Origin: Blastococcus saxobsidens DD2
GTDB taxonomy: Bacteria; Actinomycetota; Actinomycetes; Mycobacteriales; Geodermatophilaceae
DNA: 64,000 nt
Assembly (NCBI RefSeq): GCF_000284015.1
Contig: NC_016943.1
Span: forward strand, 413,541-477,540
Direction: 5' to 3'
The position numbers and the translations under genes are program-made. The notes below the pieces were generated by a model, which saw only the letters and a program-made list of their open reading frames with translations, did no database searches and was not told the origin of the DNA. Positions 6,133 to 54,489 of the stretch are shown here, piece after piece (positions within the stretch are counted from its first letter, which is position 1; every line of letters starts with the position of its first letter).

Positions 6133-6288
6133 GCCGCGCCAGGCATGGGGGGGAGTGGGGGCGGGGGGCCGGTCCTGACGGTCTGGCCGCGTTGGTCGGT
6201 CTACCCAGCAGTGGGTAGCCACTCGTTCCCGGCTACCCCCGCCCGGATCCCACTGTGACCCACACCACAGCCCCCGTCAAGGCGGCGC

Positions 6289-6354
6289 GTTGACTCACGC
6301 CAGATGCCCGCGTAGCGGCTTCGTTGCCTCATCAAGAAATGCCCGCGTAGCGGC
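6289..6354. repeat. Left end of the insertion sequence, two tandem copies
   Basis: Copy 1 starts at 6289 and copy 2 at 6323. Each begins GTTG(A/C)CTCA and contains ATGCCCGCGTAGCGG. These look like inner and outer transposase-binding sites. Confidence 0.7.
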
Positions 6355-6397: not shown

Positions 6398-7675
6398 ATG
6401 GGGTTAACGATGGGGCAGCGGAAGGCGGTCACGAAGACGACGGCGAAGCGGTACCGGTCTGCGTCGAAGAGCGAGAAGGCCGCGATCTTGACCGAGTTGT
6501 GCGCGGTGACCGGCTGGCACCGTGACCACGCCCGCAAGGCGCTGCGCCTGGCGCTGGCGGGCGAGCCGCCGCGGCGAGCACGGGCGCCTCGCCCGCCGGT
6601 CTACGGCGAGGACGTGCTGGTGCCGTTGCGCAAGATCTGGGCGGTGCTGGACGCGCCGGCCGGCAAGCGCCTGGCCCCGTTCCTGCCCGAGATCACCACT
6701 GCGCTGGAGCGGGCAGGGGAGCTCGACCTCACTCCTGCGGTGCGGGCCCAGCTGGTCGGTATGTCGGCGGCCACGATCGACCGGCGGCTGGCCGGTGACC
6801 GCAAGAAACTGCAGCTCAAGGGCCGGTCGGGCACCAAGCCCGGGTCGTTGCTGAAGTCGCAGATCCCGATACGCACCTGGGCGGACTGGAACGAGGACGA
6901 GCCCGGTTTCGTCGAGATCGACCTGGTCGGACACGAGGGCGGCGACCCCTCGGGTGACTTCGCCCAGACCCTGACGGTGACCGACATCGCCACCGGGTGG
7001 ACCGAGACCCGGGCGGTGCGCAACAAGGCGCAGAAGTGGGTGTTCGCGGCGCTGATGGAGATCACCGCGGCGTTCCCGTTCCCGGTCAAGGGCATCGACT
7101 CCGACAACGGCAGCGAGTTCATCAACGCCCAGCTGCTGCGCTACTGCGTGGCCAACAAGATCACCTTCACCCGGTCGCGGGCCGGGCGGAAGAACGACGG
7201 CGCGCACGTGGAGCAGAAGAACTGGTCGGTGGTGCGCCAGGCCGTCGGCTACCACCGTTTCGACACCGGCGCCGAGGTCGACGCGCTCAACGAGCTGTAC
7301 GCCCGGCTCCGGCTGCAGATCAACTTTTTCTCCCCGCAGCAGAAGCTCATCGAGAAGACCCGCGACGGCGCGAAGGTGATCAAGCGGTACGACACCGTGG
7401 CCACGCCCCACCAGCGCACCGTCGCCGACGACCGCATCCCGGCCAAGATCAGAACAGCGCTCGACAAGCAGTACCGCGGTCTCAACCCCGCTCAGCTACG
7501 CCGCGACCAACACGCCCTCAGCGACAAGCTCCTCGACCTCGTCAGGACCAAGCACCTGTCCCGACGCGTCCCGGCCACGCCGCCGGCTACCCGGGCACCT
7601 GCCGGTGAGGCAACGAAGGCTCATCCGCGGGCATCCGCACGTGAGTCAACGAAGGGCCGTACGCGGGCATCTTGA
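6398..7675 (+). CDS. DDE transposase (integrase core)
   Basis: A 425-residue transposase. The N-terminal part carries a helix-turn-helix-like region (SEKAAILTELCAVTGWHRDH). The catalytic core shows D175 (VEIDLVG), D236 (DSDNGSEF) and E272 (HVEQKNW), the DD-35-E spacing of rve-type integrase cores. A second ATG at 6410 after GGGG is an equally good start. The last 30 codons run through the right terminal repeats, so the C-terminus repeats a 12-residue pattern (GEATKAHPRASA, RESTKGRTRAS), and the stop lies 11 bases from the element's end. It is an IS481/ISNCY-like type. I cannot fix the exact family. Confidence 0.88.
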   Translation: MGLTMGQRKAVTKTTAKRYRSASKSEKAAILTELCAVTGWHRDHARKALRLALAGEPPRRARAPRPPVYGEDVLVPLRKIWAVLDAPAGKRLAPFLPEITTALERAGELDLTPAVRAQLVGMSAATIDRRLAGDRKKLQLKGRSGTKPGSLLKSQIPIRTWADWNEDEPGFVEIDLVGHEGGDPSGDFAQTLTVTDIATGWTETRAVRNKAQKWVFAALMEITAAFPFPVKGIDSDNGSEFINAQLLRYCVANKITFTRSRAGRKNDGAHVEQKNWSVVRQAVGYHRFDTGAEVDALNELYARLRLQINFFSPQQKLIEKTRDGAKVIKRYDTVATPHQRTVADDRIPAKIRTALDKQYRGLNPAQLRRDQHALSDKLLDLVRTKHLSRRVPATPPATRAPAGEATKAHPRASARESTKGRTRAS

Positions 7676-7686
7676 CGTGAGGCAAC
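7579..7686. repeat. Right end of the insertion sequence, three 36-bp tandem copies
   Basis: Read inward on the minus strand, copies begin at 7686, 7650 and 7614 with GTTGCCTCAC, GTTGACTCAC and GTTGCCTCAC, each followed by (G)GTGCCCG or GATGCCCGCG. The 36-base period equals 12 codons and the copies are in frame with the transposase. Confidence 0.75.
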
Positions 7687-18233: not shown

Positions 18234-18249
18234 GCTGCTCCACCGCGAG

Positions 18250-18326
18250 TCGGTCTCTGCCCACACCGGCTGGGCAGAGACCGATCGCGCGATAGGTCTC
18301 TGCCCACACTGGCTGGGCAGAGACCG
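18250..18326. repeat. Two tandem hairpin elements, GGTCTCTGCCCA family
   Basis: Arms GGTCTCTGCCCA / TGGGCAGAGACC lie at 18252-18263/18271-18282 and again at 18295-18306/18314-18325, each with a 7-base loop (CACCGGC, CACTGGC). The self-complementary ATCGCGCGAT (18284-18293) separates them. A third relative is at 39298-39332. This is a dispersed intergenic palindrome family that may end the CoA-transferase transcript. Confidence 0.8.
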
Positions 18327-18374
18327 ACTGCCGCTGCAGCCCCTCCGGTCCGTCACCCGTTCGGACGGCCGCGG

Positions 18375-52316: not shown

Positions 52317-52358
52317 GACCGCGCCGGCGGTGGCACGATCGCCACCGCCGGCGCGGTC
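52317..52358 (+). terminator. Stem-loop between dppA and dppB
   Basis: Eighteen perfectly paired bases (52317-52334 with 52341-52358, starting GACCGCGCCGGCGG) and a 6-base loop, 14 bases after the dppA stop. There is no T-run and the operon continues, so I read it as an attenuator or 3'-end stabiliser that keeps the binding protein in excess (inference). Confidence 0.6.
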
Positions 52359-52406: not shown

Positions 52407-53411
52407 GTGCTCCGCTTCATCGTCCGGCGGCTGTTCCAGCTGATCCCGATCCTGCTGGGGCTCTCCGTCCTCCTCTTCGCCTGGTTGCGCGCGCTGCCCG
52501 GCGGCCCCGCGCAGGCGGCCCTGGGTGAGCGGGCCACGCCCGAGGCGATCGCGCAGTACAACGAGCTGTTCGGCCTCGACGAGCCGCTCTACGTGCAGTA
52601 CTTCCGCTTCCTGGGCCGTGCGGTCACGCTCGACTTCGGCAACTCCACCCAGTACGGGCGGCCGGTCACCGAGGTCTTCCTCGAGCGGTTCCCCGGCACC
52701 ATCGAGCTGACCGTCCTCGCGATGATCTTCGCGATCGGCGTCGGCATCCCGCTGGGCTACCTGGCCGCCCGGCGGCACGGCAGCTTCCTGGACTCCGCCT
52801 CGGTCGTCGGGTCGCTGCTCGGCGTGGCGATCCCGGTCTTCTTCCTCGCCTACCTGCTCCGGCTGCTGTTCGCCGTCGAGCTCGGCTGGCTGCCCGGTTC
52901 GGGCCGGCAGGACGTGCGGATCGACGCCACCCGCATCACCAACTTCTACGTCCTGGACGGGCTGCTGACCCGGGAGTGGGACGCCGCCTGGGACGCGTTC
53001 CTGCACCTGATCCTGCCGGCCATCGCGCTGGGCACCATCCCGCTGGCCATCATCGTGCGGATCACCCGGGCGTCGGTCCTCGACGTCGTCAACGAGGACT
53101 ACGTGCGGACGGCGAACGCGAAGGGCCTGGCGACGGCGACGGTGCGCCGCCGGCACGTCGTCCGCAACGCACTCCTGCCGGTCTCGACGACGATCGGGCT
53201 GCAGACCGGCCTCCTGCTGTCCGGCGCGGTGCTCACCGAGACCGTCTTCGCCTTCGGCGGGGTGGGGTTGACCTTGCGGGATGCCATCACCTACCGGGAC
53301 TTCGCCGTCCTCCAGGGCTTCATCCTCATGCTCGCGGTGGTCTACGTGCTGGTGAACCTGCTGGTCGACATCTCCTACGGCCTGCTCGACCCGAGGGTGA
53401 GAGTTCGATGA
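52407..53411 (+). CDS. dppB: Peptide ABC permease (DppB family)
   Basis: A 334-residue permease with six helices. DppB features: LRFIVRRLFQLIPILLGLSV at the N-terminus, LGLDEPLYVQYFRFLGRAVT-like GLDEPLYVQY, and the coupling segment TRASVLDVVNEDYVRTANAK with GLATATVRRRHVVRNALLP. The C-terminal half has LSGAVLTETVFAFGGVGLTL. GTG 52407. Its TGA overlaps the ATG of the first of four tiny repeated ORFs. Confidence 0.93.
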   Translation: MLRFIVRRLFQLIPILLGLSVLLFAWLRALPGGPAQAALGERATPEAIAQYNELFGLDEPLYVQYFRFLGRAVTLDFGNSTQYGRPVTEVFLERFPGTIELTVLAMIFAIGVGIPLGYLAARRHGSFLDSASVVGSLLGVAIPVFFLAYLLRLLFAVELGWLPGSGRQDVRIDATRITNFYVLDGLLTREWDAAWDAFLHLILPAIALGTIPLAIIVRITRASVLDVVNEDYVRTANAKGLATATVRRRHVVRNALLPVSTTIGLQTGLLLSGAVLTETVFAFGGVGLTLRDAITYRDFAVLQGFILMLAVVYVLVNLLVDISYGLLDPRVRVR

Positions 53412-53547
53412 AGCTTGCGGAATCGAACCGGAGAGCGGAGCGATGAAGCTTGCGGAATCGAACCGGAGAGCGGAGCGATGAAGCTTGCGGAATCGAACCG
53501 GAGAGCGGAGCGATGAAGCTTGCGGAATCGAACCGGAGGGCGGAGCG
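53408..53547 (+). repeat. Four tandem 35-bp units, each an overlapping 12-codon ORF
   Basis: Units start at 53408, 53443, 53478 and 53513. The first three are identical, and the fourth differs by two bases near its end (GGAGGGCGGAGCGG). Each reads ATG AAG CTT GCG and on for 12 codons ([12 protein letters not shown]) and ends in TGA overlapping the next ATG (ATGA). The dppB stop overlaps the first ATG, and the fourth TGA overlaps the dppC GTG. Each unit also carries GGAGAGCGGAG as a Shine-Dalgarno for the next start. The result is five successive overlapping stop/start junctions. Confidence 0.9.
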
Positions 53548-54489
53548 GTGACGGCGCTCGGCGAGTACAAGCGCGAGCGGATCGACGAGCTCGCGGCCCG
53601 CGCCGGCCAGCTCCCCGCGGGGGAGGGCGGGCTGTCGCTCACCCGCAGCGCCTTCCGCCGGCTGCGCCGCGACCCCGTGGCGATCACCGGGGCCGTCATC
53701 GTGCTGGTGTTCCTCTTCGTGGCGGCGTTCGCGCCGTGGCTCGCCCCCAAGGACCCGGTCACCCAGTACCTGCTGTCGGACATCCGGCCCGGCCTGATCC
53801 CCGGCTCTCAGGAGGGCTTTCCCCTCGGTGTCGACAACCTCGGGCGGGACCTGCTCTCCCGGCTGATCTACGGCTCGCGGCAGTCGCTGCTCATCGGCGT
53901 GGTCTCCACCGTGCTGGGGTTGATCGTCGGCATGTCCCTGGGCGTGCTGGCCGGCGCCTTCGGCGGCTGGATCGACACCGTGGTGATGCGGTTCGTCGAC
54001 ATCATCCTGTCCATCCCCGGCCTGCTGATGGCGATCACCATCTCGGTGCTGCTGGGGCAGAACCAGTACGCGCTGATGATCGCCATCGCCGTCGTCCAGG
54101 TGCCGGTGTTCGCCCGGCTGCTGCGCGGGTCGATGCTGGCCCAGCGGGGCAGCGACTACGCCGTCGCAGCCCAGGCGCTCGGGGTGAAGAAGGCGCGGAT
54201 CGTCTTCGGCCACGTGCTGCCCAACTCGCTGTCGCCGGTCATCGTGCAGGCGACGCTGTCGCTGGCGACCGCGATCATCGAGGCCGCCGCGCTGTCCTAC
54301 CTGGGCCTGGGCGACCCCGACATCGCCCGTCCCGAGTGGGGGGCGATGCTGGCCAACGCCCAGGACTTCCTGTCCATCCGCCCGGCCCTGGCCGTGTGGC
54401 CGGCGATGTGCATCATCGTCGTCGCGCTCGGCTTCACACTCCTCGGTGAGCGCCTGCGCGAGGCCCTCGACCCGAAGTTCCGGCGGTGA
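53548..54489 (+). CDS. dppC: Peptide ABC permease (DppC family)
   Basis: A 313-residue permease with six helices and a hydrophilic N-terminus. Family features are [60 protein letters not shown] and the coupling loop [20 protein letters not shown], then [19 protein letters not shown] choose GTG 53548, just past the repeat array, because family members start about this far before LTRSAFRRL. An in-frame upstream start would add 21 residues encoded by the repeats. Its stop overlaps dppD (GTGA). Confidence 0.9.

Follow-up and report, generated by a model that had tools for sequence, protein, structure and literature searches.

How might two genes that share a stop/start overlap remain coupled in translation when other sequence comes to lie inside that overlap? 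The question is raised by a peptide-type ABC transporter operon of Blastococcus saxobsidens DD2 (Geodermatophilaceae), which encodes a binding protein, the permeases B and C and two ATPases. It lies in the 64,000-nucleotide stretch of contig NC_016943.1 that we analysed as a whole (positions 413,541 to 477,540; here called the window, with coordinates counted from its first letter). The dppB-like permease gene (52407–53411) and the dppC-like permease gene (53548–54489, with a GTG start at 53548), both on the forward strand, are separated here by four 35-nt units on the same strand, placed head to tail, which fill the junction from 53408 to 53547. The explanation that we favour, and hold to be reasonably probable, is that the array represents a minisatellite, local and variable, whose mini-cistrons act as relays within a 4-nt stop/start overlap of older date; it would be tolerated since it relays the ribosome by termination and reinitiation.

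Each unit is a 12-codon open reading frame (ORF) whose TGA overlaps the start codon that follows it. The ATG of unit 1 (53408–53442) overlaps the TGA of dppB (53409–53411), units 2 (53443–53477) and 3 (53478–53512) have the same sequence as unit 1, and the TGA of unit 4 (53513–53547), located at 53549–53551, overlaps the GTG of dppC. In this way dppB is joined to dppC through five 4-nt stop/start overlaps (−4 nt) in a row. The original prediction had described this chain correctly, together with four perfect repeats; three of the units are indeed identical, and the fourth carries a silent A-to-G change at 53539. Tandem Repeats Finder reported the array with a period of 35, 98% matches and a score of 278, and among its 47 rows higher scores occurred only in overlapping rows of one repeat at 5.7–6.1 kb. 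A five-link stop/start chain by itself is not that rare (about 0.1 expected per 64 kb of Markov sequence). The array is nevertheless more than chance, because it is a near-perfect repeat, stands between two real genes and recurs in relatives. An assembly artefact, against which the original prediction had warned, is unlikely, since the source genome is a single contig and independent genomes carry related arrays. The names of the transporter genes are those of the best NCBIfam matches, which fell below NCBI's curated cut-offs: DppB (NF008161, E 2e-89) for the upstream gene and peptide/nickel-type C-subunit permeases (Opp4C, E 1e-76; DppC, E 1.7e-65) for the downstream gene. The TGA of dppC in turn overlaps the GTG of the next gene.

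A query with dppB found an orthologue in 55 of 112 Geodermatophilaceae genomes, at 56 places, and after two paralogous places (G110 and the second place of G104) were set aside, 54 orthologous junctions could be compared. Twenty-five of these contained an insert of one to four units, mostly of 32–36 nt, and at the other 29 the genes met without an insert, in an NTGA overlap (26) or a TGATG-type overlap (3). The window's genome (G000) had four units; three were seen in G005, G048 and G037, two in G004, G062 and G039, and one in the remainder. The single unit of G065 was unrelated to the others and 17 nt long, with 14 of its 17 positions identical to the dppC start of the same genome, which suggests an independent birth through duplication of that start. 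Within the set of named genomes an insert was present at 19 of the 43 loci of the family, and outside the family a bare NTGA overlap was found at 37 of 37 loci (one locus, L175, ends inside dppC). The bare overlap is likely the ancestral state of the junction. As the original prediction had anticipated, copy number can change without damage to the neighbours: it ranged from 0 to 4 across species with neither gene broken, and head-to-tail units in variable number are what defines a tandem-repeat minisatellite (variable number tandem repeat), seen here between species.

The insert turns over rapidly. When mapped on a tree built from the flanking coding sequence, with the linker excluded, its presence or absence required at least 13 changes when G065 was scored as lacking it and 14 when G065 was scored as carrying it, and copy number required at least 19. 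Shuffled labels averaged 18.3 changes, so that the phylogenetic signal is weak. Close genomes differed in the number of units, with one in G047, none in G050 and three in G048, and with four in G000, two in G004 and none in G007. Such fast turnover and the repeated absence of units speak against a fixed, required DppB:DppC ratio.

We asked whether the lengths of the units preserve a reading phase. Lengths of 17, 32, 33, 35, 36 or 38 nt were seen, and among 37 units 29 had a length of 2 modulo 3, eight of 0 and none of 1. A unit of the first kind terminates at the following start, and one of the second kind reads through. In mixed arrays the read-through units came first and the last unit was 2 modulo 3, and the chain ended on the dppC start. 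At 24 of the 25 inserted junctions the chain landed on the dppC start in this manner (last unit 2 modulo 3, overlap of −4 nt). The original prediction had named absence of the unit, or its loss of phase, in close relatives, with no effect on dppC translation, as a sign against coupling; absence is indeed common, and phase is kept nearly everywhere that units are present. Random linkers of random length landed on the start in 29% of trials, extended dppC in frame in 31% and failed in about 40%. The phase signal is carried by length, because random sequence of the observed lengths landed on the start in 76%. At least six changes in the length of the last unit are needed to explain the arrays, which makes the evidence for a phase constraint good but not overwhelming.

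The peptides encoded by the units showed no comparable constraint. Differences at codon positions 1/2/3 numbered 69/78/54 and 89/97/50 in the units, compared with 222/111/682 in the dppB genes of eight of these genomes; unlike in dppB, the third codon positions of the units were no more variable than the first and second. Judged from the sequences, the reading phase is kept and the peptide sequence is free.

Displaced starts were also present at other junctions. Among 80 named loci, dppC and dppD overlapped directly in 35, the dppC stop lacked an NTGA in 32, two were uncovered and 11 had a displaced dppD start. Eight of these 11 starts were reached through complete relays with linkers of 8–62 nt (two of them outside the family, L139 and L174), two linkers were broken (L117 and L142) and L171 was set aside, in a count that relies on inferred dppD starts and so favours the finding of relays. 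Two Geodermatophilus loci, L105 and L117, had a GC-rich insert in common (GAGGAGCGGAACGAGNGCGGAGTCGAGCA), which forms a 62-nt relay in L105 and is broken in L117. The thyA–folA junction was found in 88 of the 112 family genomes. There folA was reached in frame in 37 loci (33 by extension and four by relay) and out of frame in one; 24 had CTGA, with no usable start, and 26 could not be parsed by motifs. The in-frame extensions may be ordinary N-terminal variation.

In the window's genome the thyA–folA relay is 77 nt long, and it proved to be one copy of a dispersed element. A 31-nt piece of it, with up to three mismatches, was found at four places in this genome and its reversed control at none. 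The four copies (L372, G000:C1:3582038-3582118; L373; L374; L375) lie at thyA–folA, at pyrD–pyrF, behind a GGDEF gene and at the L375 locus, where the copy adjoins genes that by eye are apparently on the opposite strand. Pfam confirmed the flanks of the thyA–folA and pyrD–pyrF copies and gave matches for five of the six proteins scanned from the flanks of the first three copies. All four copies have the form GTGA-77-GTGA, with a short ORF like VSELASSPMGTAAPRTRPTSASEEDS. At E <= 1e-4 a model built from six copies had matches in 102 of the 112 genomes of the family; the window's genome contained at least 41 copies, and many others at least 41–42. The window itself contained no convincing copy (best E 0.002), and the GC-rich insert of L105 and L117 was not matched by this model.

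Inspection of 53 loci covered 70 copies of the 77-nt element, arranged as 47 single, four double and five triple arrays (56 in all). Complete relays were formed by 51 of the arrays, one read through, one was out of frame and three could not be judged; in these counts the relay ends are partly built in, as the model includes its own NTGA ends and the inspected copies were mostly the best-scoring ones. By a codon-position GC rule the downstream flank was coding-like in 52 of 55 arrays (those with an end NTGA) and the upstream flank in 37 of 54. The length of the element is nearly fixed at 77 nt, and 47 distinct full copies had no internal stop and no third-position bias. A functional peptide made from the 35-nt units or from the 77-nt element was rejected, as both lack a third-position bias. 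The element occupies thyA–folA in G000, G004 and G028, and elsewhere a short linker often follows a clean GTGA, a pattern of presence and absence as expected for insertion polymorphism.

What the units do supply is a Shine-Dalgarno (SD)-like stretch before each start, as had been claimed for the array in the window. Pairing with the anti-SD was maximal in 8-mers ending 5–7 nt upstream of the following start, and its energy in 32 distinct units averaged −8.8 kcal/mol, compared with −6.4 kcal/mol in shuffles. Behind the unit that precedes dppC the mean was −9.5 kcal/mol, compared with −7.8 kcal/mol where dppB ends in the respective genome. The stretch behind the unit was the stronger one in 23 of 24 genomes (the exception being G055), a comparison that counts each genome singly and is uncorrected for relatedness.

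This SD-like stretch before dppC is also what one would expect if the units were harmless minisatellite DNA, fresh ribosomes translated dppC from the SD of the last unit, and relaying played no part. The rapid turnover among the close species G047, G050 and G048 agrees with such a neutral spacer as well. However, phase would be of no use to a spacer that brings its own SD, and phase has been conserved across six or more changes of length, in eight of ten dppC–dppD linkers and in the nearly fixed length of the 77-nt element, which counts against a spacer; we consider this explanation unlikely. An adaptive role for copy number can be argued from the same features. Slippage would alter the number of units, and each relay would hand on only part of the ribosomes, or add fresh ones, and so set the DppB:DppC ratio. 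The occurrence of 0–4 copies among near relatives with neither gene damaged, and an SD-like stretch in every unit, would suit such a dial. Against this, no copy number is preferred, 29 of 54 junctions do without a unit, and the permease halves of transporters usually need a fixed ratio, which makes a dial very improbable.

Conserved RNA structure was considered as another property of the unit and rejected, as none was found in the unit alignment: the consensus fold of 28 units contained no pairs, and in this lack of dyad symmetry the 35-nt unit resembles mycobacterial interspersed repetitive units (MIRUs). The RNA of the whole four-unit array (53380–53580) folded better than shuffles (z −3.3), with the units pairing mutually, a value that repeats alone can cause. 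Rfam returned a single sub-threshold match, to a group II intron (17.8 bits against a cut-off of 49), and nothing in the Rfam scan pointed to a tRNA-like origin.

The original prediction had also suggested that the unit may be a selfish element of ATGA junctions, to be sought in related genomes. A 26-nt piece of it, with up to three mismatches, occurred at four places in the 4.88-Mb source genome, all within the array, and a sequence model built from 28 units found nothing better than E 0.06 outside the array in that genome. At E <= 1e-4 the model gave 29 matches in 20 of the 112 family genomes and 22 matches in 15 of 397 genomes of the order, the latter all Geodermatophilaceae. Every one of these matches lay at the dppB–dppC junction, so that no second locus was found at this threshold in either set and the unit lacks the dispersal of a MIRU; the model overlooked four of the 24 genomes with 32–38-nt units (G009, G018, G023 and G036) and so can miss copies that have diverged. 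The family genomes also yielded about 70 weaker matches (E 1e-4 to 0.05), and those of them that were inspected mostly lay inside open coding-like frames. Two unit-like stretches, L199 (G038) and L231 (G010), lie behind thyA with their ends exactly at the start of folA, and L213 (G064) opens a frame of 29 codons, the TGA of which overlaps a start codon GTG. The suggestion of a selfish element thus regains some ground: the 35-nt unit showed a single locus at E <= 1e-4, but a 77-nt element of like design is dispersed over stop/start junctions in these genomes.

The unit could still be a copy, perhaps shortened, of a MIRU-like repeat that spreads by insertion at NTGA overlaps. This possibility overlaps with the explanation that we favour, which leaves the origin of the unit open. 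It draws on the dispersal of the 77-nt element, matched in 102 of the 112 genomes, on the thyA–folA copies of G000, G004 and G028 beside junctions that are empty behind a clean GTGA, and on a resemblance between the unit and the 5' half of the element. Scored against the element, 32 units gave a mean z of 1.67 with the 5' half (15 of 32 above 2), compared with −0.22 with the 3' half and 0.08 with the 5' half in reverse. At thyA–folA of G026 (L371), moreover, three tandem blocks of about 33 nt resemble the 5' half and are in frame with folA. However, neither model recovers the sequences of the other repeat: the 77-nt model failed to match dppB–dppC arrays (the window, L042, L043, L051 and L056), and the unit model failed to match the 77-nt copies tried (L314, L331 and L336). 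The unit also has no second locus at E <= 1e-4, and it resembles the dppB end about equally, with a mean z of 1.9 (other dppB segments gave 0.15, the dppC end 0.14), mostly in its SD-like half and in scores that lack independence since all units share descent. Mobility of the 35-nt unit is, on this evidence, rather unlikely, and the unit may possibly be a shortened relative of the dispersed element. Two local sources were rejected, the dppB end, for which a stricter local alignment gave nothing clear, and the dppC start, with a mean z of 0.2.

Both repeats can be set beside MIRUs by description. MIRUs have been described as scattered small ORFs which overlap the genes next to them (PMC4473831, PMC12548453). 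Like the MIRU at the senX3–regX3 junction, for example, both lie between co-directional genes, consist of small ORFs that overlap the neighbours' stop and start codons in the same direction, and occur in tandem copies; this likeness is one of design. The 77-nt element, a small ORF that overlaps both neighbours in the same orientation, shares the scattering of MIRUs as well, and its length is that of a 77-bp MIRU mentioned in PMC4213456. The 35-nt unit differs in its length of 32–36 nt and its single junction, and otherwise fits the description. The ancestral dppB–dppC junction corresponds to a familiar arrangement, since a 4-nt overlap between subunits of one complex is typical for coupling by termination-reinitiation (PMC10666635); here, in contrast, up to five overlaps are placed in series through non-conserved mini-ORFs. 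In Escherichia coli a gene can be boosted by a short nonsense ORF that precedes it and contains an SD (PMC13255528). That synthetic ORF (nfORF) encodes a nonsense peptide, has an internal SD near its stop and adjoins the target start, as the units do, and differs from them in being engineered and single where they are natural, tandem and variable. In a search limited to a collection of open-access papers, on MIRUs, on coupling, on the family and on such arrays, we found no report of either repeat in Geodermatophilaceae.

Taken together, these results can be accommodated by the following sequence of events. A unit of about 35 nt would have come to lie in the dppB–dppC overlap within Geodermatophilaceae and would then have multiplied, changed length and often been lost, presumably through slippage between its ATGA ends. 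With a start codon, a short frame, an SD-like stretch and a TGA that restores the overlap, every unit could act as a full relay, and a ribosome leaving dppB would terminate and reinitiate stepwise until it reached dppC. An untranslated insert of such length is expected to uncouple dppC. In E. coli reinitiation was (almost) abolished by a stop-to-start distance of 38 nt, while the final 15 nt of the gene upstream were sufficient (PMC10666635). An insert of 35 or 77 nt should therefore break the coupling, except where it acts as a relay. As each unit makes up a complete relay, the insert would be tolerated, with selection for coupling presumably keeping the phase, and the dispersed 77-nt element would follow the same logic.

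Several observations weigh against this reading. In G090 a 33-nt unit forms an in-frame extension of dppC, the one junction where the chain does not land on the start. The arrays share ancestry, and only about six changes in last-unit length are needed. Since the units supply an SD-like stretch, dppC might start without a relay. To these are added the two broken dppC–dppD linkers and the inferred starts at that junction, the thyA–folA junction, where the parsed linkers were mostly in-frame extensions and many others were CTGA or unparsed, and the relay ends built into the 77-nt model.

Other repeats were noticed in the window. A long inverted repeat at 52317–52358 separates the binding-protein gene from dppB and might form an RNA hairpin by which expression of the permeases is reduced. 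Pairs of repeats of about 35 nt flank the region at 6.4–7.6 kb (6288–6354 and 7605–7686) and look like one family in opposite orientations. At 18244–18327 two 43-nt copies lie in tandem, each a strong, terminator-like hairpin (GTCTCTGCCCA...TGGGCAGAGAC).

A broader idea, which we put forward tentatively, is that Geodermatophilaceae carry a class of relay repeats, to which the 77-nt element would belong together with shorter derivatives, among them the dppB–dppC array. These repeats may colonise operon stop/start overlaps by handing the ribosome on, and their copy number would then become a slippage-driven dial of downstream translation. The junction itself offers a natural series of 0 to 4 relays, with read-through versions, at a single place in close relatives, and this series makes it possible to study how many successive rounds of termination and restart a ribosome can complete, and at what cost per round. 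A phase that is kept while the peptide is free provides a signature for which sequences can be scanned. The dispersed 77-nt element suggests that MIRU-type architecture extends beyond mycobacteria and that stop/start overlaps are permissive sites for repeats through which reading can continue. Ribosomes may be handed along such inserts.
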